A stretch of 64,000 bases of DNA from Gymnothorax reevesii. Lineage: Eukaryota > Chordata > Actinopteri > Anguilliformes > Muraenidae. The stretch spans positions 152,541,947-152,605,946 of the forward strand of contig CM056573.1 of NCBI GenBank assembly GCA_029721435.1, written 5' to 3'. The stretch's first letter is position 1, and each line of letters opens with the position of its first letter. The position numbers were made by a program, and so were the translations under genes. The notes under the pieces were generated by a model, which was not told the origin of the DNA, ran no database searches, and saw nothing but the letters and a program-made list of their open reading frames with translations. Below are positions 30,055 to 62,935 of the stretch, in pieces.

Positions 30055-31165
30055 ATTAATTCCTGAATTTTTACGTGAGAAACAGAAACCGATTACTTTG
30101 GTTGAAATATTTCACTTTGCAGTAATGATGGAGAGGATTTGAATATCCAGTTTCAGACCCCGACGTAGAAATTTGAGACTTATGAACGAATGAGACAGAG
30201 GATTCATTTACACTTGCATGACATCTGTTGTGACTGCATCTCAGACTATCTCCTAATTTTGGACATCTGAATTCTTTATTATATATATTTTTTAATGTCT
30301 GAAGTGAATCTTTAGGTACAATTTTGTAAAGATTATCCATAATAAAATGCATGCTCAAAATGCATCAAAATAACTACTAATTAGCAGATTAGAGATTTTG
30401 AGAGCTGTTTCGAGCTGTGCTTCATCAAGGTTGAAAACCGAATCATTAATAAATCACCAAAATCAGGGCTGGGCAGCCCTGATACTGATGGACTTGTCTG
30501 TTATATTGGCGCTCTCTTGTGGTGAGACATAAACACAACAGACCAAAAAAATGCACTTTTAACACGATTAAAACAGTTTTTCTTTATTTTTTTAAAATAA
30601 TTATGCTCATCAGGGATATGAAACCACTTATAATTTTAAATGAACAGCTGTATTATTCTGGGCCCTTGGTCTCTGGTTATTTTAATCCGCCAGAACATAA
30701 ACCTGCAAGAAAATCAACAAATCAAAATGAAACATATTTTGTTCTCAGTGAACATGATATATTTATAACCCCAACTCTGAAAACCCTTTGATATATTATG
30801 GAAAATGCACATAGAATCAGAAAAGAGCGATTTGAAAAATCTGTTCACCTTTTACTATTCTGAGCACACAGCAACAACACATAATTTGATTTTTTAATTT
30901 GAAAGTCGGTCCTGTCTGCCCATATTCCTCCCAAATTCAACTGAAATGTCAAATATTTATACAAAATTAAAAATGTCTGTTTTTCAATGTGAGATAATGA
31001 TGCTTCAATAAAGTGTCCACACAATTTTAGCTGTATAGAACGTTGTATATTACTGTAGTTCCTTTAATGCACACTGTCTGCGACTACCCTGCATTTACCC
31101 ATTTACAGTTGGGAAAGGGTATATATCCAAAGGTACTAATAAAGTATATGTCTACATTGTAGCAA
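30055..31165. other. Sequence downstream of spaca6
   Basis: AT-rich; no gene seen. The spaca6 3' UTR should lie in the upper part, but no minus-strand poly(A) signal stood out close to the stop. Confidence 0.45.
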
Positions 31166-31374
31166 TTACCCCAGGGACAAGAAGAGCAGAAGCAAGAGAG
31201 ATGTCAGACAAGCAGCCATGAGCAGTGGGGAGGGGAGGATTGTAATGCTGGCAGGGGTTGGGGTGAGGTCACTGGATGGTCCTGCAGGTAGGGATGGAAT
31301 CTGCGCTCCAGACAGGACAGCCATATCAAATGTGCCTTGCAGCTTGACCTGGGAACCCAGGACCTGAGGAATCA
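31166..31374 (-). CDS. spaca6: spaca6 exon 9: stalk, C-terminal membrane segment, stop
   Basis: 209 nt, acceptor CTATAACAG. The first two bases complete a valine codon with exon 8. It reads VKLQGTFDMAVL, which parallels TELQASFREVL in human SPACA6 (from memory), then a Pro/Ser/Thr-rich stalk and a hydrophobic run of about 20 residues ending LFLSLG at the TAA (31168-31166). The near-absent cytoplasmic tail could mean a tail-end transmembrane helix or, less likely, a GPI signal. No clear poly(A) signal was identified. Confidence 0.72.
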
Positions 31375-34300
31375 CTGTTATAGAGATTACAGTGATATGT
31401 GTTAGAGGCCAAGGAAAGAGAGGCACAGCTCTTGCTGTTACAAAACATAAATCGAGACAGAGCGACAGGTTCTCCTTAGATATGACAAATACAAACAAAT
31501 TAGTGAATATTTCTTAACAAATCAATTGCTAAACCTCCAAAACCTACTTGCCTGAAAGAAAATTTTAATTCTCCGTGGAAAGAAATCTTGCTGCATTGTG
31601 CCTTCATTAGTTAAAAAGCTACACCAGTTAATACTATGTGCAAATGCTTTTTGTTCTCTGACCTTTGTGCCTTCTCGTATAGCGATGATAGCCACTATGT
31701 TGTCTTTCCTACCGTTTTTACACTGTTTTAGTTTGCTCTGTTCTGTTTTAATTGCTCTGTTCTATGCGTCATGATGTTTTACAGCGATTTTATGCTGATT
31801 ATTTATATTGTTTTTAGTTATGTACTTTTACTGTGAAGCACTTTGTGTATACGTACTGTGAAAACTGCTATACAAATAAACGTTTACTTACTTACTTACT
31901 TACTTATGTATGCTCATGAAATTTACATGGCAATTTTGGCCAGGAAACTCAAGCTAGTGATAGATGGTCTACGTCAGGCACACAGTCACATTTCCTCAAT
32001 TGACAAATTTTTTGTGCACATAACTTTTTACATGAAAATAGGTGGGGGTGTGGAAGATGGTAAAGGAGGCATAAATGAACCAAAGCTTTAAGATTTGTGA
32101 ATTGCAGTGAATGGAGCAACTAAAATGTAACCATAACAGCAGCATCCATTGCAATGTAGCACTTAACCAATTACTTTTTGGAAGAAATGCACAAAGAATG
32201 CCCTTATTGAGCATCAGAAATAAAACAATGACCTTGGATTTTGCCAAACATTATAAGAACTATCACTGACTAACTAAGAGCAATAAAATCGCGAGACCAA
32301 AATAAAACTTTTGGACAAGCGTGCCATTGGCATGTTTGGAGGCAAAAAAGAAGTGCAATGAAGAAGAATATCCAGGTGGATCACTGATTTTTTTGGGCAC
32401 ATCTTGCTATCAGTGGTCCCAAATCCTTCCTGGCCTCTGTTGCAGATGTCTTATGTCGTTTGCTTCGCTCACACACACACCAACATCTGCACGTGTATTG
32501 CGTTCAGAGAAATTTTGACATTTCTGGAGCTAGCTAATTACATATGCACATACTGCTGTGGGAGCATACGAGGGATGCAAACCACGTAAGACATCTGCAA
32601 CGGAGGCTAACCAACACCAACCTGTTGAAACTGCTCAGAAGGAGTAATGTCTCCCGGTTTCTTTGGTGTTGAGTTTTTCCTGAAGTTCTTTGGCTGCAGA
32701 GCAGCGCACTTCCGTTGGTGCTTCGGCAGGTAGACGCTTGCCCCGGGCCAGGCGCTATCATTGTAAAGTCGCTTCATTTCCTTTATGGTCTCATCCAGTT
32801 GACTTTTTATTATTGTGAACTTTTCTAATAAACGGTAGCATTCTGTACGGCATACAAACAGTTCGCTTGAGGAATATACAGCAGTATTTACGGAAAGAGC
32901 ACTGCCAATAATTGAAGGAAATTATCCAAATAATCCAAATATCCCTCTATCTGCTCTCCTCACCCTCAACAGAACCCCTTTTGAGCCACATATCAACTGC
33001 CGCAATATTATATGGTGCAGCACTTTCTCTCGTCATCTTACAAAAGATGATGATACGAGCTGTGTGTGGGCCAGGTAGAATGCACACTCACGCTTTGTGT
33101 TCCTTCGCTATGGTCTTCTTAGGCTTGCAGAGCTAAATGTCCATCAAAATGCTTGTATGATGTATCAAGTGGTACATAACATAAACAGCAGATTGTCTGA
33201 GCTCGTTCCAGTCTACAGTCCTCTGCTCATCCATGATACTGGAAAGAAACATCTTATCACTGGCAAAAAAAAAGAACTTAAATGTACCAGCTTGAGTTTT
33301 ACTTGCAAGGGCCCGCAGATCTGGAACGAACTTGATGAGTGCATGAAAGTGCTGAAGACCATCTCTATCTGTGGTGGATTCATACTTGTACAAGGTATCG
33401 AAGGGAGGACTGTATCTGTACCCCTGCGCTCCGTATTCTTCAAGTCAGATTTAGTTACAGGACAGGTAAAGGTGGGACTTATGTCAAGTCTACCTATCAA
33501 GGGTGTTTCTCTGTTGCTAGGCAATGACCTGGCTGGGGGCAATGTAGTTCCCCCTGTTCATCTTACTTCACAGCCGAGCACTGAAGATGGCAATGAAGAC
33601 CCATCTCGGTATCCTTCCTGTGTAGTGACCCGTGCTATGGCTAAGAAGGCTCAAGAAGAAGATGATGTGGTGCCGTCCAGCACATTGAATAGTCAGGATT
33701 TATCAGATACTTTTATCAGTTTTCTGTTCAGCCAGCCAGATAGGTCTAGTGATTCTGATGTGTCTGGAGACTTGTCTCTGTCCAGAAAGCAGTTGATTGA
33801 GGAGCAAACTAATGATCCTGAAATTTATGTACTGAAGAGGAGAGCCCTTCCAGAAAAAGAAATAGACCCAGTTCCAGTTAGGTATTATCTCAAGGATGGT
33901 GTGTTGATGCGGAACTGGCCCCCTCCTGATATCCCTGCTAATGCAGATTGGGTAGTGGTTAGGCAAATTGTTGTTCCGAAGGTCAACAGGAATCAGATCT
34001 GAACAATGGCTCATAGTTTACCTTTGGGAGATCATCTTGGTGTTAACAAGACTGTTGATAAGATCATGAAACACTTCTTCTGGCCTGGACTTCGGAAAGA
34101 TGTTTCCAACTATTGCAAAACCTGTCACACTTGTAAGGTAGTAGGAAAACACAAGTTAGACCCACCTGTAACTCCATTGCAGCCTATCCCAGCATTTGGG
34201 GAGCCCTTCTTTAAGGTCATTGTTGATTGTGTTAGTCCATTACCCAAGACTAGATCTGGAAATCAGTGTGCGCATCTACCAGATTCCCTGAAGCCATACC

Positions 34301-37300
34301 TTGATGTAACATCAAGGCAACTGCAATCTCAAAGGCTTTGATAAAGTTCTTCACGTTGGGAAATTCAGTCAGACTAAGGTAGCAATTTCACTTCCAGATT
34401 GTATCAGCAGGTTGTGTATGAACTAGGTGCGAAGCATATTCTTTCCAGTACCTATCATCCAGAGAGTCAGGGTGCCTTAGAGCGGTTTCATTCCACTCTC
34501 AAGACAATGATGAAGACTTATTGTTATGACCATGAGAAAGACTGGGATGAAGGTGTTCATTTGCTGTTGTTGGCAGCTAGAGAAGCAGTGCAGGAGTCTA
34601 CTGGATTCAGTTTGTTTAAGCTAGTGTTTGGCCATGAAGTTAGAGGACCTTTGCTATTGTTGAGTGAACAATGGCAAGAGAAAGAGCCATCAGTCTGTTA
34701 GACTACGTTAGCAAGTTCAAGGAAAGACTGCATGCAGCTTGTGACCTAGCTAAAGAGAACTTGAAATCAAGTCAGGGAAAAATGAAAACTTTGTATTATC
34801 ATAAGGCTAGAAGCCGTTAGTTTAAACCAGGAGACATGGTCTTGTGTTGTTTCCCTTGCAGTCCAATCCATTGCAGGCTAGATTTCATGGTCCTAATGAA
34901 ATTCTGACAAAACACAATGATCTCAATTACATTGTGAAGACTCCAGATAGGAGGAAGCCAAAACAGTTGTGCCACATTAACATGCTGAAGCCTTATCATG
35001 ATTGGAATGCTAGGGTTGCAGCTGTCATTTCAGATCCTCCCATGGCTAAGACTTGTGAAGATGAGGGGGAGTTTCAAGATTATCAACTTAGAATTAAAGC
35101 TGAAGTTCTTTCATGTAAATTGCAAAATCTTGATGTAAAACTCCAGCACGTAGAACCCTCACAGAAACATCAGTTTGAGAGGTTGATCAAGAAATATAAG
35201 GATCTATTTTCTGATGTTCCAAAGAGTTTCTTTAGCTTCTCATGATGTCAATGTTGGTGATGCCAAACAAAATAAAACAGCATCTGTACCGCATGAATCC
35301 TGAAAAGAGAAAGACTGCTGAGAAAGAGGTTGAGTACATGTTAGAACATCATATTATCAAACCCTCTAACTCAGATTGGAGTTCACCCTGTATGTTAGGT
35401 CCAAAACCTGATGGAAGTACTAGATTCTGTACAGATTATCGCAAAGTCAATGCTGTAACTAGAACGGATGTGTTTCCAATACCTAGGATTGATGATTGTA
35501 TCGATAGAGTAGGGCAAGCAAAGTTTCTGACCAAGATTGATTTATCGAAGGGTAATTGGTGCTTGCCTTTAACTGAGAGGGTGAAGAGCATCTTTGCTTT
35601 TGCCACACCATGTGGGTAATACCAGTATGAAGTCCTACCCTTTGGTATGAAAAATGCCCCAGCCATGTTCCAAAGGATGATACAGTCTACAATCGCCGGA
35701 TTGCCACAGACGAGTGCATACATCGACGACCTGATCACACGGAGTGACTCCTGGGGAGAACATTAAAAGATGTAGAGACGTTGTTCCAGCGCCTGACTTA
35801 GGCTAACCTGACTGTTAACCTGAACAAGAGAGACTTTGGTTGTGCTACTGTCACGTATCTTGGCTACGTCATAGGCCAGGGTAAGGTAGCACCCATAAAT
35901 GCTTAACTCCAAGCCATCATGGACTTTCCAGTTCCTGACAACAAAAAAGCTTTGCGCCACTTCCTTGGAATGATCGGGTACTACCACAAGTTCTGCAAGA
36001 ACTTTGCTGAGATTGCTCTCAGTCTCACCAACTAACTGAAGAAGGGTGTAAAGTTCACTTGGGATGAAGCATGCCAAAGAGCCTTCAATCGCCTGAAGTC
36101 TCTGCTGTGTCACTTCCCCGTGCTCAAATCTCCTGACTTCAACAAACCATTCTCCATTGCAGTCGATGCTAATGGCCAAGCTTGTGGATCTGTGCTCCTA
36201 CAAAGATGTGACTCTGATGACATTAAGCATCCCGTGGCATACTTTTCCAGGAAGTTCAATCGCCACCAAAATAACTATTCCACAATAGAGAAGGAGCTGT
36301 TGGTTCTGGTTCTATCCTCATAACACTGAGAGGTTTATGTTTGTACAGGGCAAGAGCAAATGATTGTGTACACTGACCACAATCCGTTAATGTTTTTGAG
36401 TAAAATGAAAAACAAGAATCGGATATTGTTGAACTGGAGTTTGATTTTACTGGAGTTTGACTTGGAAATTAAGCATGTAAAGGGTACTGACAATGTAATT
36501 GCTGATTGCTAATCCTGTGTTTGAGTATGTGTATATATCACGTTTATGAGCAATTTGTATTACATGTACATATACACAATTGTCTACGAAACCATTTTTG
36601 TATTGAAAAGAAATTTTTTTCCTTCATGAGTCAAAATTTTTCCCTTTTGGAATGGAGGTGTAATGTGAAAAGAAGTCACTAAATGACGGTATTGACCTTT
36701 TCTTTTGTTAAGCCCAGAATGGAGCTAGGTTTGGACATGTCCTGGGCATGTCCGAGATGGAAAGTCCCAGAGAATTAAAAAAAGTCTAAAAGGAGGGAGG
36801 GTTCTGCAAAAGAGTATATAAGGAGGAAAATTGAGAGAGTAAAGTGGTAGGAGAAATTGCAAGAAGGATACATTTGACCAGACCTGTCACACTGTTCAAG
36901 ACCTGTCCCAGTGAAGTTTTTTTTTTGTGGATTTTTGCCTGTGTTGGAGTATTTTCCTCACCCAGGACATCACCAAGCAACCCCACCAAAGGGACTGTAA
37001 ATATTTTTGTTCTTGTATTTACCAATCTTGGTCAGTAGAGCAGATAGTAAATAAGTTAAAAGTGTTTGTTTAATTAAACCTGTTTAAATTTTAAAATTTT
37101 GTCTGTCATCCCTTGCTGTCATAAATGTTACAACTAATTGGGGCCAAAACATATAAAAATAATGATATATATAAAAATAATTAGGAGACCTAAATTTACG
37201 ACTGACACGCCCATTTTTTTTTTTAGGAGTTTCTCCTAAATCCGGTAGTTAGGACCTACTTTTAGCGCTAAGATTGTTTGTGAATATGGGCCCAGGTGAG

Positions 37301-40300
37301 ATAAGTGAAGCGTGTAATCAATTGCTTGAATTCATCAATCAAGTGCTGAGTAACACTAAAAACCAGCAGACACTGCAGCTCTCCAGGACCAGGCTTGGCC
37401 ATCCTTGAATTATGAGGATATAAGGAAGCGCTGAATTCATCGATGGAGGAATGTATGTGTAAATCTATGGTTGTAAACAACGCGATTATGTGATAACTGT
37501 AACAGATAGTAGAATGGCATAGTATCAATACCATGTTGTATTTTCGCTTCAGAAAATTGATTTTTCTTAACTACTAATTGGGATACCATTGGCTCACTAT
37601 AGCTGAAGTGCTTGCTACAAATTACAATGATTTTTTTCTGTCACAAGAGATCATTGTTTTGAACTGCTAGATAGATAATATAGGGAAGCACATTGAGCAG
37701 TTTGCACTCCAGGCTTAGCCGAGAAGTTTAATACATGCCACTCCTGAAAAACAGGGATGTGACTGGACTTGTGTAAAATTAGCCTCAAATATCGTATTTT
37801 TGCTAAACAATTATTTATCATGACTTAGGTTGATGCTGTTATGTTTAGTGAGAGAATAACAAAATATGTAAGTGCAATATGTGTGTGATAATATTCTGAA
37901 GGAGAGCTACAGCTAAACAGCTAAATTAACAATAATGTTGTTATTGTCCAAATATTTATGCACATTATGCTCCCCAACTACAGAACCTTCTGTCGTTTTG
38001 TCCTAAAGCAGCTGCTTGAAACCAAGGGGAAAGTTTACATATGATGGGCTGTACAGGTCTGGAGGAGATAGGACCTACCAGTTAGAGGAGAACTTGGTCA
38101 CACGCTGGATACTGACAGCAGGAAGGCTCTTGGCCCCTGGCATCACTCGCTTGATAGATGATTATACTTATAACTGGCTAAATTATAATAAAACACTTTA
38201 GTTTGGATGGGAGCTTGTGGCTCCTTGATGGAACAACCCTCCCTCTTTCTTGCCTCACCTTGGAGGTGATGGTAGGTTCTGACAATGGACCGCTGCTGGG
38301 AGAAGATCTCACACTGGTAAGTGCCCTGGTGGTGAATGCGGGCAGAGGAGATGAAGTACAGTTGATCCTTCCCAACAGTCACAAGCCCAAATTGTTCCAC
38401 CTGCTGAGTCTTGATCTTTATGGGAGGAAAGGTCTGTTGTGATCCCAGAGTATATGCTTAATCTCATACGGTCTTATACTTATGAGCACGCACACTCGCA
38501 CACATGCGTGCGTGCGCACACACACACACACACACACGGAAATTTTTTTCTTCTAAAGGGGACAACATTTGGGTCAAGGCTGTATCAGCATAACGTATTT
38601 ATAAGTGCATGGAACTTTTCTGGTGTTTCCCTTGAGAGTTGATATGAATGAAAATAATAGAATGGTACAGCTGCCTCGTATTTTTAAGAATTGAGACGTC
38701 AGTTGTATCAACCAGCTGCCAAAAGTCCCAGTAACCCTAGCCCATAACGACTAAACTACCTCATTGCTCAACAAAGTTGCTCACCTCAGGGGCAAATCTC
38801 CAAACAACCTCGATGTCATTGGGCAAGGGAAACTGGACGTCACATTGCATCTCAGTGCTGTTGCTTTCTCCAACTATGAGATCCATCACTTTACAACACA
38901 GATACAGATCATAAGCAAATTTCTTAACTTGTTTACTTAAAATAAATTTGATGGGCAGGATGAACTGCCTCGATCATTTCAATGAATTAAATAACGCCCT
39001 TAATACTTAATAATGCCCTCCACAAAAGTGAGTGTATGAGATGGTTGTTTGAGCAGTAATTTCACAAAGGCAGGTGGAGAATGAATAGTATGGCGAGTGG
39101 ACGAAAGCTATAGTCTTACATATGGCAGAATTGTCTTAGGACTTTTGCTCAAACCTCAAATTACAGATCTTCTGTTTGGCAAACATAGATGCTCAGTTGA
39201 AGTATGTGTTTGTTATGTGTCCACAACCTGTACCATATAATAGTACAAAGCCAGGCTGCACTTGTTAATTCTAAATTGTTGTATGTGCTCACAAATGAGA
39301 TAACTATTACTGAACACTTGATATTGTTCATTTGCTCAGTCTTTCTTGTTGTTTTTCAGGGTCCAACCTTGATCCTGTGCATGCAGAACACCTGTCTATG
39401 TTGATTTATATTCCAGCTGCAATTACAATGCCAGACATTTAACCGGCTGTAAATAATTTGAAAACAAGATGCTTTTTATGTGTGATTACTGCAAATTCCA
39501 AAATCACATTCTGTGTTAAACAGTTATGAATGCCACAGTGTAGACAGTGTAATGTTTTCATAGTATAATAATAAGCGCCATATGACTAATGTATTTTATC
39601 ATTCATGTCATTATAAAGGCATTTCCAGCATAAAGATAAATTAGACTACACATAGTAACCCTTATGCAACTAAGTAAGAAATAAATGATTGCTGGTCAAA
39701 ATTGTAGGACTTAAGGATAGACAGAAAACCAGCAGCTACTGAAATCCCCCAAGACTGGGATTTAGATAAAGTACAAACTATTTTACTGTAGGACTATCCC
39801 ACCGAAATAGCAAGCCTTGCAATAATGTTTATGCCATCTTAAACACTAAAAAAGTGAAATCTGATAAAAGTTTGCACATTCTGTACTCCATAGCACTGAG
39901 TGAAAAGTCACCGCGTGAAAAGCATGTCAGCTATTTTATCTATGTGTGCGTAGGACCTCTCCTTGAATCACCACCTTATCGTGGTGGAGGGGTTTGAGTA
40001 CCTGGATGATCCCAGGAGCTATGTTGTTTGGGGCTTATTTCCCCTGGTAGGGTCTCCCAGGGCAAACAGGTCCTAGGTGACGGGTCAGACTAAGAGCGGT
40101 TCCAATGCCCCCAATGAAGAAAATCACATCAAGGAAAGTTACTTCGCCCGAAGTGACGTCACCGCGACCCCACCCTGGAGCCAGGCTTGGGGTTGGGGCT
40201 GGCAGGCGAGCGCCTGGCGGTCAGGTCTCCACCCACAGGACCCGGCCGGGCACAGCCCCGATCAAGTGATGTGGGCCCGCATTCCCATAGGCCCATCACC

Positions 40301-43300
40301 CGCAGGAGGGTTCAGAAGGGCTGATGCTAAGCGTTTTGGGTGGCAGTCGTGGGCGGTGGCCCCAACGACCCAATGCCTGGACATGGAATCTGGCTATGGG
40401 GAAATGGAATGTTACCTCGCTGGGGGGGAAGGAGCCTGAGCGTGTGTGGGAGATTGAGCGCTCTGGAACCCAACTCCTTGAGGGAGACTGGACCCTCTTC
40501 TATTCTGGCGTTGCCCGCAGTGAGAGGCGGTGGGCTGGTGTGGGCTTGATTATAGCCCCCCAGCTTAGCCGCCATGTGTTGGAGTTTTTCCCGGTGAACG
40601 AGAGGGTTGCTGCCCTGCACCTTCGGGTCCGGGACAGGTGCCTCACTGTTGTTTCGTCTTATGGGACGAATGACAGTGCAGAGTACCTGGCCTTCTTGGA
40701 GTCCATCGGAGGGGTACTGGAAAGTGCTCCGACTGGGGACTCCATCGTTCTGCTGGGAGACTTCAACTCCCACATGGGCAGCGACAATGTAACCTGGAGG
40801 GGCATGATTGGGAGGAACGATCTCCCCGATCTGAACCAGAGTGGTGTTCTGTTATTGGACTTCCGTGCTAGTCACAGTTTTTCCATAACGAACACCTTAT
40901 TCAAACATAAGGGTGTCCATCAGTGCACGTGGCACGAGGACACCCGAGGCCGGAGGTCAATGATCAACTTTGTGGTCGTATCATCTGACCTTTGGCCGTA
41001 TGTCTTGGACACTCGGGTGAAGTGAGGGGCTGAGCTGTCCACTGATCACCACCTGGTGGTGAGTTGGATCCGCTGGCGGAGGAGGAAGCTGGACAGACTA
41101 GGCAGGCTCAAACATGTTGTGAGGGTCTGTTGGGAACGTCTGGCGGAACCCTCTGTCAGAGGGGTTTTCAACTCTCACCTCTGGGAGAGCTTTGACTAGA
41201 TCCCAAGGCTGGAGACATTGAGCCTGAATGGACCGTGTTCTCCACCACCATTGTTGATGCGGCCGTTCGGAGCTGTGGCTGTAAGGTTTCCGGCACGTTA
41301 CGGCGGCAATCCCTGAACCCGGAGGTGGACACCGGAAGTAAGGGATGCCGTCAAGCTGAAGAAGGTGTCCTATTGAGCTTAGCTAGCTCATAGGACTCCT
41401 GAGGCAGCTGACAGGTACCGGCAGGCTAAACGTGCTGCGACCCAGGCGGTGGCGGAAGAAAAAACTTGGGTATGAGAAAAGTTCGGGGAGGCCATGGAGG
41501 AGGATTATCGGTCAGCCCCGAAGAGATTCTGGCAAACCGTCCAGAGCCTCAGAAGGGGGACACAGTGCCCTGCCAACACTGTTTACAGTGGGGGTAGGGA
41601 GCTGTTGACTTCGACTGGGGATATTGTCGACCAGTGGAAGGAATACTTCCAGGATCTCCTCAATCCCACTGACATGCCTTCCGTAGAGGAAGCAGAGGAT
41701 GGGGACCCAGAGGCTGATTCATCCATCACTCGGGTTGAAGTTACTGAGGTAGTTCGGAAGCTCTTCGGTGGCAAGGCACCGGGGGCGGATGAGATCCGCC
41801 CTGAGTATTTTAAGTCCCTGGATGTTGCAGGGCTGTCTTTGGTCACACACCTCTGCAGCATCACGTGGCAGTTGGGGACAGTGCCTCTGGACTGGCAGAT
41901 CGGGGTGGTGGTCCCTCTATTCAAAAAAGGGGACTGGAGGGTGTGCACCAACTACAGGGGGATCACACTCTTCAGCCTCCCAAGTAAAGTCTATTCCAGG
42001 GTGCTGGACAGCACAATTCAGCCGATAGTTGAACCCCTGATTCAGGAGGAACAACGCGGTTTTCGTCCTGGCCGCGGAACACTGGACCAGCTCTATACCC
42101 TCCGCAGGGTGCTTGAGAGTTCATGGGAGTTTGCCGAACCAGTTCACGTGTTTTGTGGACTTGGAGAAGATATTCTACCTTGTCCCTTGTGGCATACTGT
42201 GGGAGGTGCTTCGGGAGTATGGAGTTCAGGGCCCTCTATTAAGGGCCGTGTGGTCTCTGTATGACCGGAACAGGAGCTTAGTTCGCATTGCCAGCGGTAA
42301 GTCAGACCTGGTCCCGGTGCATGTTGGACTCTGGCAGGGCTGCCCTATTTTAACGGTTCTGTTCATTATTTTTATGGACAGAATTTCTAGACGCAGCCAG
42401 GAGCCGGAGGGAGTCCAGTTTGGGGACCACAGGATCTCATCTCTGTTTATGCGGATGTTGTCGTCCTGTTGGATCCTTCAATCCAGGATGTTCAGCATGT
42501 ACTGGGGCAGTTTGCAGCTGAGTGTGAAGCGGCTGGGATGAGAATCAGCACTTCCAAGTCTGAGGCTATGGTTTTCGACCGGAAAAAGGTGGCGGGCCCC
42601 CTGTGGGTTGGAGGAGAGCTCCTGACTCAAGTGGATGAGTTCAAGTATCTTGGGGTTTTGTTCACGAGTGAGGGAAGGATGGTGCATGAGATTGACAGAT
42701 GGATCGGTGCAGCAGCAGCAGTAATGCGGTCATTGTACCAATCTGTTGTGGTGAAGGAGGAGCAGAGCCGAAAGGCGAAACTTTCAATTTACCAGTCAAT
42801 CTACGTTCCTACCCTCACCTATGTCAGGAACTTTGGGTCATGACCGAAAGAACGAAACCTCGGATACAAGCCGCTGAAATGGGTTTCCTCCACAGGGTGC
42901 CAAGGTGCTCCCTTAGAGATAGGGTAAGGAGCTCTGTCACCCGGGAGGAGCACAGAGTAGAGCCGCTATTTCTCCACGTTGAGAGGAGCCAGCTGAGGTG
43001 GCTCAGGCATCTATATCGGATGACCCCTGGACGCCTTCCTGGGAGGTTGTTCTGGGCATGCCTCACCAGGAGGAGGCCCCGAGGAAGACCCAGGACACGC
43101 TGGAGGGACTATGTTGCTCAGCTGGCCAGGGAACGCCTCGGGATACCCCCGGAGGAACTGGAGGAAGTGTCTAGGGAGAGGGAGGTCTGGGGATCCTTGC
43201 TTAGACTGCTGCCCCGCGACCCGGCCCCGGATAAGCGGAAGAAGATGGATGGATGGATGGATGGATGGTGTGCGTAGGAATATACAAACGCATGCTTGCA

Positions 43301-43500
43301 TGTAAAAAAACAAGTAGTTTTTTCTCAAAAAGTTGGTGTCCGGGCCACCTTGAAATTTAAAGTTAACCGAATTTAAGTGCGCAAGTTGAGGTAATTTTGT
43401 AATGATTCAAATTTTCCTCAACTTAGAAGGAGTATCTTTTTTTTTTTATAGTGTGAAAACCTGTGGGAACGTCCTCTCTAATCATTGTCTGTTTTCTGAA

Positions 43501-43534
<34 letters not shown>

Positions 43535-46500
43535 TGTGTCTGTGCGTGTGTCTGCCGATGTGTTTGACTGCCTGAAGGGGGCTGGGTAGGCTAGGCTGCA
43601 AGATTACGGGATTGGATGGAGGTGTTGATCAATACTGATGCTTACCAGGACAGTCCAGAGGATATTCACAGCTGTCGTACAGACAGGTGACACAGTTATA
43701 AACAGCGCCTGATTCCTGAAAGCCTGTAAATCGCCAAATAATAAAAAAAAGAATTTGGGGGAACAAACAGAGATATTTTTATTCTCTGAAAACCATCTTC
43801 AACGCAGACAAGATACTAAACAGATGTTTTTAGATTTCGGCAAGAGAATTTGAGAGAATGTCATGATATAAGCAAATGTAAATTACAAAATACTTCTCCA
43901 CGAAATTGGCAGGAGCAAGGGCAGGAAAATGGTCTCTAGGATCAGAAATATTGCAGTAATATTTCTGAGAATGAAGGAGATTTGAGATCCCAAATGAAAG
44001 GTTAACCTTCTCCACATTATAAAGTTAGTAAATCAGCATCAGAGGACGCTGGTACTCACCACAAGGAGGGTAGCATCCAGTAGCTAATGAAAGATAAAGA
44101 GATGTTCAACCTCAAGCAGAGTATTTCTCCATCGTGACAGGTTTATTTCAAAGTTGTCAACATCATAGGACCACATATCGGAATTGAATCTTAGACAACT
44201 GTATTATCAATTGGTTAGCTTTTTTGGTTATAGGATTTGTTTTTTTGTTTTGTTTTGTTTATGTTTTTACAGTGTATCACTAATATTTGCCATTTGCCTG
44301 GTCAAGGTCTCCCTAGTAAAACTTCCTGTTAAGCATAGTCAATAGAGAGCAGTTGTCAAAGATTCAAGATTCCATGTCAACTGTTTTTCTGTTCTGGTGC
44401 CTCAGGGGGAAACATCATATCCACTGTATATCGAGGCAACGAATGTTTCCGGCGAGATATTGGACAGTCAAAGGAAGAAATAGAGCATCAACAAATGCTT
44501 CCTTGAACCTGGGCACAACACAAGTCAGAGAAATCTCTTTAATGTCATTACAGGCCAATAGGTGGAGTTTAGGAAACGGTGGCAAGGTACAACGTTGTAA
44601 ATGAGAACTTCTCTTCTGCCCTAAGCCAAATAAGTTTGTGTGTGCATTTGTGCTGAGTCTGAGCATGGGTATCCATACATACATGGAACTCACCAGTATG
44701 TGCACAGAGACACAGCATAAAAATTCCACCTTGGCATAAACAGTACATTTCATATCCCTATAAATTAATGCTGATAATATTTATTTTGACCTCATACTCA
44801 TATATGCAACTATAAAGCAAGGATTCTCTCTCTGTGTGAGAATGAGTGTCTTTTGCATATATCGAGATTCGCTGATTCCGATCTACTTCACTCCTGGCGA
44901 TTCTTCTGCTGGCAACCCAAGGATACGCGGAGTCAAATTTGGTGCGATTTGGAAACGGGGCATTTTCAGTATTGATAAACTTTGAATAAATAAGTGAACA
45001 GCACTCTGAGCAGCAATGAGGGCGGGGCTTCAGGGCTCTGCAAACTGAGTTGAGCTGTGGCTCATAGTTTGTGCATTTTGAACGGCACAGTCTGAGTTGT
45101 TTTTAAATCCAATTTGCTGGAGTATAGAGCGTAAAAGGAGAAACTGCATCACTGTCCACATACTTTGCAACTGCTTTATATAAATCAGATTCTTGGAAAA
45201 AATTAAATTAGGGGGAAAACGACTGCTTCTCACCTCGAGGCAACTTGGACGCTGCAGTGATGAAGTGGTCAGCAGCTGCCAGTAACCTCTCTTCATACAC
45301 AGAGTCTTACAGATCGCACAGGAGAGAGAGAGAATGAGTATGATCCCGACATGCTGCTCATAGCCATTCTCTGCCCTCCTTCAGCCACCAGCTCCCGCTG
45401 GCCCTCAACTCTCCCTCATTATCTTCCATTTTCACACTTCTTGTCTCGCTGTCTGACTATCAGAGTGAGGGTGTCTGATGCCAGTGCTTGGTGAAACAGT
45501 GCTACACTTCTGCCCGATAAGTTTTTTTTGTTCCCCTTTATTTTGTCTGTCCTTTCTTGATGTTATTGAAATGCAACTGGTGCTCCTTCACAAATGTGCT
45601 CTCTTTAAATAATTTTAAATGAATAGCTTTTAAATTATTTGTCTCTGTCTCACTCTTCCTGTCTGAAGCATAGACTGTAAAAAAAGATGGACGCAGCTCC
45701 CGGGTCTGAGAAGTGAGGCCGATGCGGAAATCTCAAAAAATAACATTCTATTTAATGGCCAGCAGATGGCGATGTCGGTGGTTGGAGAAAGAAGTTCAAT
45801 GCTATTGAAGTCTATGAGAAAATGACCCTACTTTGCCACCGGATTATTTCAATGATTTTCCACATCATCTTATGGTATCTACCGCAAGTTTCAAGTCTCC
45901 GTCGATATATCGTGATGTTCATTTTTTGTAAAATAAGGTCCCAAGTAGACTGGAATAAAGGATAAAGCCAGAATATACTTTAGGGGCGTGGCAATCCTCT
46001 GGTCCTTGTCCGATACGGCCAGATCCAGGGCCATGTCCTCCTCGGATCTTCAATTCACGCTCTCGTCCGATAGGAATCACACCCGGTTTCAAAATGACAA
46101 AATGGTGCTGTTCAAATTGCCAAAAATCGAGGCTTCTTAAATGGTATGCTGAAACCAGTGGGTGATGTCACCCTTGCTTCGTCCATGTTTTTAGACAGTC
46201 TATGGTCTGAAGTGTAGTGGTCATTGGGTGTCTCAAGCTGCATGATTTGATACCTGGATTTAACTTCTCATCAAATTCCTCCACAAGGGGTATGATCTCA
46301 GCATGCAGGATATCCCTTAATTGTCTGTCATAGCCTCCCCCTGATGAAAACAGACACCTGACTAAATGTGAGCTGATAATTACATCATGCAAAGTCTACT
46401 CTCTTTTTACCTTTTCATAGTCCCAAACATTTCATAGTCTTTCCTGATCTTAGTTTTAAATTATGAAAGTGTCACAACTATGTTTAATCAGTCATCAGTT

Positions 46501-46830
46501 TCCAATGAGTTCATATGTACATTCCATTGAAACAGCAACAACAACAACAACAACAACAATAATAATAATAAAAGTAATAATAAATATTATGACCAATGCA
46601 AAGTCCATGTCCTCACCGACTCGACCAGCCTGGAGCACTTTCTTTTCATGGTTGAAAATCCGATCAATTTTCTTGAAACAAGAGTCCATGTTTCGTACAC
46701 CATATTTGGTAAGAACATGCCCCCAACACAAACGGAGGCTGTCATTAACATCTACAAAGCACTGGAAACAACCAGAAGAGCAAACTATCCAGACACTGAG
46801 AAAAATTGCCCAGATGGCCAATTTCTCCAT
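31166..46830 (-). CDS. spaca6: spaca6, sperm acrosome membrane-associated protein 6 (nine-exon model)
   Basis: Exons in transcript order: 46830-46617, 46340-46254, 45305-45234, 44325-44281 (tentative), 44083-44060, 43723-43646, 38888-38785, 38433-38259, 31374-31166. Coding length is 1,008 nt (335 residues plus stop), close to human SPACA6 (about 324). All introns read GT-AG and every junction phase agrees. Domains: signal peptide about 1-19; CFQC motif (C21, C24) opening an IZUMO-like helical region to about residue 140; CYPPC (143-147) and CVTC (158-161) hinge cysteines; an Ig domain with C189, W203 and C249; a C-terminal hydrophobic segment about 310-335. From knowledge of the family, SPACA6 is a sperm-surface protein required for sperm-egg fusion in mouse and zebrafish, acting with IZUMO1 and TMEM81. 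The PLDCPV motif and the CxPPCG hinge match human SPACA6 as I remember it; no alignment was run. IZUMO1 or another family member is less likely because of this hinge. Confidence 0.88.
31884..31906. repeat. (TTAC)n microsatellite
   Basis: Five TTAC units in spaca6 intron 8. Confidence 0.85.
32434..32606. repeat. Inverted repeat (30-bp arms)
   Basis: 32434-32463 and 32577-32606 pair through GTTGCAGATGTCTTA and GTTTGC blocks across about 113 bp. Lies in spaca6 intron 8. Confidence 0.6.
33000..33364 (+). pseudogene. LINE reverse transcriptase C-terminal fragment
   Basis: Reads LQKMMIRAVCG, then after a frameshift RYGLLRLAELNVHQ and MMYQVVHNINSRLSELVPVY, then KGPQIWNELDECMK, the usual CR1/L2-type LINE tail. 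It ends abruptly against the Gypsy fragment. Confidence 0.7.
33365..36513 (+). pseudogene. Gypsy pol remnant: INT then RT then RNase H
   Basis: The integrase zinc finger (GDHLGVNK ... CKTCHTC) is at about 34025-34140. DDE-type blocks follow: VIVDCVSPL, a second aspartate block interrupted by a stop near 34372, and HPESQGALERFH with the glutamate. RT spans about 35260-36020: KPDGSTRFCTDYRKVNAVTR, FLTKIDLSKGNW, LPFGMKNAPAMFQR and the active-site YIDDLI. RNase H is at about 36140-36480 with FSIAVDANG and IVYTDHNPL. Multiple stops and frameshifts make it inactive. Confidence 0.88.
36659..37132 (+). repeat. Gypsy 3' LTR (474 bp)
   Basis: Starts TGTAATGTG and ends AATGTTACA, with inverted TGTAA/TTACA tips. 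A TATATAAGG box lies near 36817. A purine-rich stretch (TTTTGGAATGGAGG) precedes it, as a polypurine tract should. The matching 5' LTR was not found. Confidence 0.75.
37290..37410 (-). mobile_element. Partial hAT MITE
   Basis: Minus strand has GGATGGCCAAGCCTGGTCCT and GGAGAGCTGCAGTG, resembling the end of a common fish hAT MITE. The other end and the duplication are not visible. Confidence 0.4.
38259..38433 (-). CDS. spaca6: spaca6 exon 8: second half of Ig domain
   Basis: 175 nt, acceptor ACAACAG, donor GTGAGG. It contains ARIHHQGTYQCEI, a typical Ig F-strand with C249, matching ...LTHRGTFSCVI in human SPACA6 as recalled. It enters in phase 0 and leaves in phase 1. The following 6.9-kb intron holds a Gypsy fragment in the opposite orientation. 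Confidence 0.88.
38514..38537. repeat. (CA)n microsatellite
   Basis: About 11 CA units in spaca6 intron 7, just upstream of exon 8. Confidence 0.85.
38785..38888 (-). CDS. spaca6: spaca6 exon 7: first half of Ig domain
   Basis: 104 nt ending in phase 0 at a GTGAGC donor. It carries the first Ig cysteine (C189) and core tryptophan (W203), with an N-glycosylation sequon NST at 183-185. Together with exon 6 it reads DCPV at the junction, as in human SPACA6. The intron before it (38889-43645) holds a 3.3-kb LINE. Confidence 0.88.
40324..41025 (+). pseudogene. LINE apurinic-type endonuclease domain
   Basis: Contains MGKWNVTSL (catalytic Asn block), SIVLLGDFNSHMG (LGDFN), and TRGRRSMINFVVVSSD, where the usual IDF is INF. 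A TGA at 41023 stops it just before the conserved STDHHLVV, which is still present in the DNA after the stop. Confidence 0.85.
41494..42843 (+). pseudogene. LINE reverse transcriptase, frameshifted
   Basis: Contains GGKAPGADEIRPEY, VVVPLFKKGD, NYRGITL, EEQRGFRPGRGTLDQ and a VDLEKIF block (normally VDLEKAF). A frameshift near 42140 moves to another frame. The active-site FADD reads YADV in its best frame, so the second aspartate is lost. The C-terminal region continues to about 43250 with RRPRGRPRTRWRDYV. Confidence 0.88.
43501..43539. repeat. (TG)n microsatellite
   Basis: About 19 units with one interruption, in spaca6 intron 6. Confidence 0.9.
43646..43723 (-). CDS. spaca6: spaca6 exon 6: hinge cysteines
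   Basis: 78 nt, acceptor TTTACAG, donor GTAAGC, phase 1 in and out. It encodes NCVTCLYDSCEYPLDCP, the second CxxC and the PLDCP motif that joins the helical bundle to the Ig domain in SPACA6. Confidence 0.88.
44060..44083 (-). CDS. spaca6: spaca6 exon 5: 24-nt microexon
   Basis: 24 nt encoding TGCYPPC, with a pyrimidine-rich acceptor ending TTTCATTAG and a consensus GTGAGT donor. The CYPPC motif matches CIPPC of human SPACA6 (from memory), and the last base joins exon 6 to complete a glycine codon. Gene finders often miss exons this short. Confidence 0.8.
44281..44325 (-). CDS. spaca6: spaca6 exon 4 (tentative)
   Basis: 45 nt between an AACAG acceptor and a weak GTGATA donor. I chose it because it is open in the needed frame, links exons 3 and 5 in the right phase (1 in, 1 out) and begins GSF, as the corresponding human segment does. 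It is about eight residues shorter than the human segment. I scanned the rest of 44084-45233 by eye and found no better phase-compatible exon, but the donor is poor and another exon could be the true one. Confidence 0.45.
45234..45305 (-). CDS. spaca6: spaca6 exon 3: helical bundle
   Basis: 72 nt with a GTGAGA donor, phase 1 on both sides. It contains VYEERLLAAADHF, which lines up with NYDERSHLHDTF of human SPACA6 as recalled. The acceptor is CTGTAAG. The intron upstream (45306-46253) contains a complete 536-bp hAT-like element. Confidence 0.82.
45669..46204. mobile_element. hAT-like element (536 bp) with perfect 8-bp duplication
   Basis: Ends CATAGACTGT and ACAGTCTATG, extending imperfectly to ATGGACG. 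Exact duplication gtctgaag at 45661-45668 and 46205-46212. No ORF. Lies in spaca6 intron 2. Confidence 0.88.
46254..46340 (-). CDS. spaca6: spaca6 exon 2: helical bundle
   Basis: 87 nt, entered and left in phase 1. The acceptor is pyrimidine-rich and ends TTTTCATCAG; the donor is GTATCA. It encodes an acidic amphipathic helix containing LRDILHAEIIPLVEEF, as expected for the four-helix IZUMO-type domain. The phase joins exon 1 exactly through a shared glycine codon. Confidence 0.82.
46534..46571. repeat. (CAA)n(TAA)n microsatellite
   Basis: About eight CAA then four AAT units in spaca6 intron 1. Confidence 0.9.
46617..46830 (-). CDS. spaca6: spaca6 exon 1: signal peptide and first CxxC
   Basis: Starts at the ATG on 46830-46828. 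Residues 1-19 form a hydrophobic signal peptide ending near CSS, followed by GCFQCF, the CxxC that opens the mature IZUMO-like bundle. C35 and C51 follow. The donor is GTGAGG (46616-46611) and the exon ends in phase 1. Human SPACA6 has a matching cysteine spacing (CLLC, then LRIC, then EEC) from memory. The opposite-strand reading across this exon is a shadow. Confidence 0.85.
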
Positions 46831-61428: not shown

Positions 61429-62935
61429 TACTCAGTCCATACGAAAACGCACCACTCACGAAATCTGGAATAGCTCCACGGATTGATATGTGAAGTATAT
61501 ACGTATGATGCATTTGAGATAATGAATGATTTAAGAAGACATGTGAACATCATTCAATTTCATTCACGATAATGTTAATGCGCGAGAGAGGGATAACTGG
61601 TGTAGGGGTCAAACAGGAAAGTCAATAACGGGTGTGACCGCCATTTGCATTGACACGTGGTGCATTGTCGTCGCATGGAGTTGATCAGTCTCTGGATAGT
61701 GTTCTGAGGGATAGCATTCCACTACGGAACAAGGGCAACCTCAAGTTCTCGGATGTTGTCCATCTGGCGTCGACGTGAAAGACGTCGTCCAATTTCATCT
61801 TATAAGTGCTCGATAGGGGAGAGGTCGGGTGACAGAGCTGGCCACTGAAGCAAGGGGATGTTCTGCTGTGCAAGGTACTGCATGGACACCCTTGCAGTGT
61901 GTGCCCTAGCGTTGTCCTGTTGGAACGTGTGGACATCGTGGTGTTGGTTGAAGAAAGGCACAACATGGTTCTGCAGCACCTGGTCCCGGTAGTAGACGCC
62001 ATTCACCCTTCCTCTGCAGATATGGAGAGGGGTTCTGTGACGGTAGCTTATTCCACCCCACACCATAACGCTGCCACCACCCCAACGGTCCGTTAGAAGG
62101 ACACAATCGGCGTTATAACGTTCACCACGTCTCCGCCAAACAGGTAAAGGGCCATCTGCGTTCCTTAAGTGAAATCGTGACTCGTCAGAAAAGATGACAC
62201 TGTGCCATTGTCGTAGTCGCCAATTCTGGTGCCTGTTTGCCCACTGTAGACGCTGGTTTCGGTGACCATCTGTCAATATGGGGCCGAAATAAGGACGTCG
62301 TGCATGCAGGCCTGCAGCTTGCAGACGGTTCTGTACGGTGTTGGGGTGAATGAATCCACGTCGTCCTTGGACTTGAGCAGCCGTTCTTGTCGCTGGTAGT
62401 GTTCGGCCTCGGACATGATCCCGTACGATCGGACGGTCCTGACATGCTGTTGTCACACGTTGTTGACTCGGTCGAGGACGGTCCCGAGTGCTCCTCGTTT
62501 GCAGAAACCTTTGATGGAGTCTTGCGATCGTTGTGTGTGCGCAGTGTAGTCGTCTGGCAATTTCCCTGGTGCTGGCGCCAATTTGAAGCATGCCTATGGC
62601 ACGTTCCCGTTCAGGGGCTGTAAGTCGCGGCATAGTGTCGACGTTTCACAAGTGTCAGTGAAGAAGTGAAATTCTATTCGGATTCACATGCTTTTAAAGG
62701 CAATGTGTGCACAAATTCAGAGTGAAATTCATTTTTCCCATGGTGTGCGTGCAAGATGTTGCGTTTTTGCAAAAAATTACAGCGTTACAGTTAACTTGAA
62801 ATTCTCGCATTTCTTGCACCTGGCATGTTGGGTGACGTCACTGTAGTGTTGTTGTTGTATAAAAATTATATTGAAGTTCATTTGAACTTAAATATTGACT
62901 TTTTTCAAGTGGTGCATTTTCATTTGTACTCAGTA
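61429..62935. mobile_element. Tc1-like element, complete ends (1,507 bp)
   Basis: Ends TACTCAGTCCATACGAAAAC and the complement of TACTGAGTACAAATGAAAAT, flanked by TA dinucleotides (61427-61428, 62936-62937). It contains one transposase on the minus strand. Confidence 0.85.
61570..62633 (-). pseudogene. Tc1-like DD34E transposase with early stop
   Basis: From the ATG at 62633, 277 codons are open: an N-terminal HTH region (ERAIGMLQIGASTREIARRL), then D150 in FSDESRF, D240 in FQQDNARAHT and E275 in SPIEHL, giving 34 residues between the last two, the Tc1 signature. A TAA follows IEHL, and the normal C-terminal tail (DEIGRRLSRRRQ) continues in frame with a second stop (near 61725). About 60 residues are cut off. 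It is the best-preserved transposase in the window. Confidence 0.9.

Follow-up and report, generated by a model that had tools for sequence, protein, structure and literature searches.

A nine-exon spaca6 gene, probably the anguilliform orthologue, in Gymnothorax reevesii

The locus described here raises the question of whether a series of short open pieces, lying among the remains of mobile elements, forms one complete gene, and if so which gene it is and where it ends. The gene spaca6 is a known sperm gene on which sperm-egg binding or fusion depends in vertebrates, and the anguilliforms are an early branch of the teleosts that includes the eels, which are difficult to breed in captivity. 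The window, by which we mean the whole 64,000-nucleotide stretch of Gymnothorax reevesii DNA that was analysed, had been given a first-pass annotation claiming a complete spaca6 gene of nine short exons and 335 residues, spread over 15.7 kb between positions 31166 and 46830 and hidden from the reading of single open frames. We find a spaca6 copy on the minus strand, in which nine coding exons between 46830 and 30636 (Table 1) join in one frame of 335 residues plus a stop codon (1008 nt). The eight introns all begin with GT and end with AG, and the entry phases of exons 1 to 9 (0, 1, 1, 1, 1, 1, 0, 1, 2) fit one another, in agreement with what had been claimed for exon number, frame and phase. 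It is also fair to call the gene hidden, as the longest exon, exon 1, holds the 71 codons given earlier for the largest piece. The introns measure, in order, 276, 948, 1150, 336, 4757, 369, 6884 and 467 bases, and the coding span comes to 16,195 bp, not 15.7 kb. The donor sites match 6-8 of 9 consensus positions, those of exons 1, 2 and 8 matching only 6.

Table 1. Positions of the spaca6 exons and of associated features in the window (tblastn values are for the Anguilla protein).
Feature	Positions	Strand	Length	Content	tblastn identity, E
Exon 1	46617..46830	-	214 nt	start codon, signal peptide, first CXXC (CFQC), C35 and C51	76%, 5.7e-39
Exon 2	46254..46340	-	87 nt	helical domain	89%, 1.6e-12
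Exon 3	45234..45305	-	72 nt	helical domain	76%, 1.5e-6
Exon 4	44060..44083	-	24 nt	microexon encoding ATGCYPPC (CxPPC motif)	
Exon 5	43646..43723	-	78 nt	second CXXC (CVTC) and CEYPLDC hinge	92%, 8.1e-11
Exon 6	38785..38888	-	104 nt	first half of Ig-like domain (C174)	52%, 1.0e-15 (match overruns exon)
Exon 7	38259..38415	-	157 nt	second half of Ig-like domain (C228)	79%, 9.6e-25
Exon 8	31170..31374	-	205 nt	stalk and transmembrane segment	58%, 3.0e-14
Exon 9	30636..30702	-	67 nt	cytoplasmic tail FMFWRIKITRDQGPRIIQLFI and stop	48%, 1.5e-4
AATAAA	30583..30588	-		candidate polyadenylation signal just 3' of the stop; motif read in the sequence, role putative	
LINE-type retroelement pieces	40291..42843	+		intron 5; three ORFs in separate frames; antisense to spaca6	
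LTR-type retroelement pieces	34826..35619	+		intron 7; two ORFs in separate frames; antisense to spaca6	

When the Anguilla protein was compared with the window by tblastn, eight colinear minus-strand matches were obtained, one for each exon except that of 24 nt, with E values of 5.7e-39 to 1.5e-4 and the next match at 0.54. The salmonid protein P0010 gave seven exon matches, none of them for exon 9, and a next match at 0.20; in the reversed window, which served as control, the best E values were 0.76 (Anguilla) and 0.078 (P0010). A 33-nt stretch at 38111-38079 was rejected as an exon on comparison with the eel proteins.

Exon 4 is too short for a significant tblastn match (hits over it reach only E 1.3 and 0.93), and its support comes from position, phase and motif. 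A scan of intron 3 for open, in-phase stretches of 9-90 nt between AG and GT yielded 48 candidates, three of which encode CxPPC; these share one acceptor, and the 24-nt version retains the CGFQ of the eel proteins. The two cysteines of the microexon are present in 114 and 107 of the 120 homologues listed. Among these public fish SPACA6 models, 13 of the 120 have no CxPPC anywhere, and the number rises to 20 of 120 if G[FL]Q is required after it. In four models (P0005, P0013, P0031 and P0109) the exons flanking the microexon are joined directly, while nine more listed rows carry other residues in the microexon columns. Models of this kind perhaps reflect annotation errors and perhaps real skipping. 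Skipping would preserve the frame and remove two cysteines beside the hinge; that the microexon is alternatively skipped in testis, producing a second SPACA6 form of altered geometry, seems to us improbable, and the four fish models perhaps imply skipping wrongly. Because the CxPPC motif sits on an exon of 24 bases and the tail on a separate exon of 67 bases, spaca6 is easily mis-annotated. The public annotations of zebrafish spaca6 disagreed in exon number, and the protein-coding one lacked the N-terminus, according to PMC8762341. The literature searched for spaca6 together with a microexon returned nothing, and titles and opening lines of abstracts in the literature searched for spaca6 and eel described no eel spaca6 gene. 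The present model adds a complete spaca6 gene for an anguilliform.

The low boundary of the gene had to be corrected. Position 31166 closes an in-frame TAA that is created by reading past the donor of exon 8 (GG/GTAATT, the slash marking the exon end), and reading through to it gives 314 residues. The interval 31166-46830 contains eight exons, the ninth, at 30702-30636, falling outside it. The 335 residues are attained only with exon 9, so the protein first described was right and its low coordinate wrong; the high end stands, and the gene is complete only when the exon beyond that interval is included. The frame does enter this TAA right behind the membrane segment, as would be expected if the gene stopped there and encoded a tail-less protein of 314 residues, either as its main form or as an isoform retaining intron 8. 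However, the tail is present in the proteins of Anguilla, Conger and Aldrovandia, and a matching exon, with its acceptor, is found 467 bases further on and is required for the 335 residues, which makes an end at 31166 very unlikely. The exon 9 peptide FMFWRIKITRDQGPRIIQLFI matches the C-terminal end of the Anguilla protein, FMVWWMTMTRDEAPRIVQLFI, with an identity of 0.64, compared with a median of 0.11 over those listed fish (86 of 120) that have residues there. Since exons 8 and 9 lay outside the query used in the protein search, they were aligned separately to the Anguilla C-terminus, with scores of 226 and 75, respectively, each reached by none of 1000 shuffles. We place the end of the coding sequence at 30636.

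The protein search was made with exons 1-7 minus the microexon (237 residues), and of 359 candidates 196 proteins matched at E <= 1e-3, of which 120 were listed. The best match listed is SPACA6 of Anguilla rostrata (E 1.1e-128), and the names, as far as they are shown for the 120 listed of the 196, either read SPACA6 or say little (hypothetical, uncharacterised, unnamed, Ig-like), with no IZUMO or TMEM name among them. The highest identity among the matches listed is 81%, suggesting that the window's own protein is absent from the database; judged by these matches, the Gymnothorax reevesii copy seems to be unannotated among public proteins. Of 337 full-length columns, 77% are identical in the Anguilla protein and 76% in that of Conger, and the closest full-length relatives are SPACA6 proteins. 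The Anguilla rostrata protein (P0001, 337 aa) has the same termini and the same CxPPC segment, but is two residues longer, and the likeness is weakest in exon 8 (70%) and exon 9 (64%). A maximum-likelihood tree was built from the window protein and 16 homologues chosen from the 120 listed (17 rows), and in it the window protein groups with Anguilla, Conger and Synaphobranchus with a support of 96/96, and these four group with Aldrovandia at 100/100; the branching within the four is not settled. Anguilla, Conger and Synaphobranchus belong to families that are placed in Anguilliformes. The gene is an ordinary member of the already known SPACA6 family, and on this comparison the locus is almost certainly the spaca6 orthologue of an anguilliform fish.

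The gene might still have been silenced recently, as a pseudogene that continues to read open, and two of its introns do hold retroelement pieces. This we consider hardly likely: retroelements inside introns are ordinary, the 335 codons are uninterrupted by a stop, every splice dinucleotide is intact, and the window protein keeps all 81 of the 81 conserved columns, a conserved column being one with agreement of 95% or more among no fewer than 100 of the 120 listed homologues. In addition, the DNA of exon 7 has a single match in the whole genome (2.17 Gb in 421 contigs, the window lying on contig C1), and that match is at the spaca6 locus.

Read from its N-terminus, which is signal-like, the 335-residue spaca6 product continues with a helical region that bears a double CXXC, followed by an Ig-like domain, a single membrane segment and finally a short tail. 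The signal peptide, single membrane segment and tail were assigned by hydropathy and by alignment to the eel proteins; the first two had been proposed earlier, and hydropathy agrees, with a hydrophobic signal-like N-terminus at residues 4-22 (KD 2.06) and a membrane segment at residues 296-314 (KD 2.43). The SPACA6-type cysteine motifs also named in the first-pass annotation are borne out. Both CXXC motifs, which as a pair linking helix 1' to the hinge are a feature of the IST superfamily, are kept (CFQC at 21-24 and CVTC at 143-146) and would form disulfides, and 10 of the 14 cysteines are found in 120 of 120 listed homologues. C35 and C51 are likewise found in 120/120. Human SPACA6 has an extra cysteine pair, Cys41-Cys55, that joins helices 1 and 2, according to PMC9482655; C35 lies 11 residues beyond the first CXXC, as in human, and is separated from C51 by 16 residues versus 14 in the human protein (same paper), the pair lying outside our structural alignments.

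A search of PDB sequences with exons 1-7 gave human SPACA6 (7TA2) at E 3e-15, the next best of three matches to E 10 being at 0.21, and a profile search (13 rows) gave 7TA2 at E 1.3e-29, followed by Contactin-1 at 0.0063, among 36 matches to E 10. IZUMO1 was not found among the 3 or the 36. The sequence match to 7TA2 runs only from the end of the helical domain through the hinge and Ig part, a stretch in which CIPPC, the hinge CXXC, C...PLDC and the Ig cysteines of the human ectodomain align; this alignment bears out the Ig domain claimed earlier, the Ig region scoring under every Pfam cut-off. A structure model of the Anguilla orthologue, made from 19 homologues, is of good quality for the Ig part but weak for the helical domain (mean pLDDT 63.4, pTM 0.39). 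With this model Foldseek ranked 7TA2 first (5.7e-15) and IZUMO1 structures second to seventh (from 2e-8). Superposed over the whole length, the model gave TM-scores by query of 0.29 and 0.24-0.25 with rmsd values of 17-20, so that the Foldseek result backs the ranking and not structural detail. Where members of the IST superfamily have a distorted four-helix bundle with a triangular face, the model shows helices of low confidence, though 7TA2 ranks first. IZUMO1 (PDB 5F4E and others) shares the plan of a helical bundle plus Ig domain but gives no sequence match to E 10, and it is described in PMC9482655 as being without the extra helix disulfide of SPACA6. The window protein is thus closer to SPACA6 than to IZUMO1 by sequence, and by fold this holds for the Anguilla orthologue only. 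That the locus is instead another IST-superfamily or related gene (IZUMO1-4, TMEM95 or TMEM81), as the common architecture, the IZUMO1 matches of the Anguilla model and a weak Izumo-Ig Pfam score (E 0.0062, under the cut-off) might suggest, appears extremely improbable and is by the rankings largely refuted, given the names of the 120 matches listed of 196 and the presence of SPACA6 and absence of IZUMO1 to E 10 in the PDB sequence searches, the direct comparison having covered SPACA6 and IZUMO1. The earlier assignment to SPACA6, and to no other gene of the IZUMO family, is thereby upheld.

The function of spaca6 in Gymnothorax reevesii would follow by analogy with its orthologues. According to PMC8762341, zebrafish spaca6 has nine exons, encodes 318 residues and is expressed in testis, and its product likewise has a signal peptide, helical and Ig-like domains, a membrane segment and a short tail. 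The zebrafish protein is 17 residues shorter than the one described here, and the function proven by knockout is that of the zebrafish gene: its loss leaves males sterile, with sperm that do not bind the egg and a lowered level of Dcst2 (PMC8762341). In mouse, loss blocks fusion after binding, whereas in zebrafish binding itself is blocked (same paper). The description of the gene as essential holds in zebrafish and, by the work cited in that paper, in mouse; it may extend to this fish. By orthology, the eel protein would be produced in testis and located in the sperm membrane, where it may help sperm to bind the egg before fusion, as in zebrafish. A possible template is the zebrafish-type complex of Izumo1, Spaca6 and Tmem81, which might contact Bouncer on the egg; PMC11052572 cites experimental data for this trimer and a suggestion that it interacts with Bouncer. 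The mouse trimer is cited, and its affinity for zebrafish Bouncer predicted to be low, in PMC12530800, so the Bouncer contact may not be general.

The first-pass annotation called the locus transposon-dense, and pieces of mobile elements were found in two introns of the gene and in its flank. A Pfam scan covered 10 of 25 listed open reading frames (at least 120 codons); six of the ten match mobile-element families and four match nothing. The pieces in intron 5 match Exo_endo_phos (E 1.1e-4) and RVT_1 (E 3.7e-6 and 1.6e-5), all under the Pfam cut-offs, and those in intron 7 match Integrase_p58_C (34.3 bits, cut-off 27) and RVT_1 (29.8 bits, cut-off 29.6). Neither set overlaps an exon, both would be removed by splicing, and we saw no sign that they affect spaca6. 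In intron 7 no family of LTR-like direct repeats of at least 60 nt was found. The linked miR-99/let-7/miR-125 cluster, which neighbours human SPACA6, gave no Rfam match in the window at gathering scores. Beyond the LINE-type pieces, intron 5 contains a GATG repeat at 43244-43268. An open minus-strand piece in intron 7 (about 32880-32620) encodes a basic, cysteine-bearing peptide; it was rejected as an exon, having no Pfam match and no counterpart in eight SPACA6 homologues. The same intron holds an inverted repeat of 38 nt (32433-32470 and 32570-32607, 87% complementary, 99 nt apart) that is MITE-like. In the flank, at 61800-62645 on the minus strand, an open frame of 281 codons matches HTH_Tnp_Tc3_2 and DDE_3 above the Pfam cut-offs and represents an element of the Tc1/mariner type.
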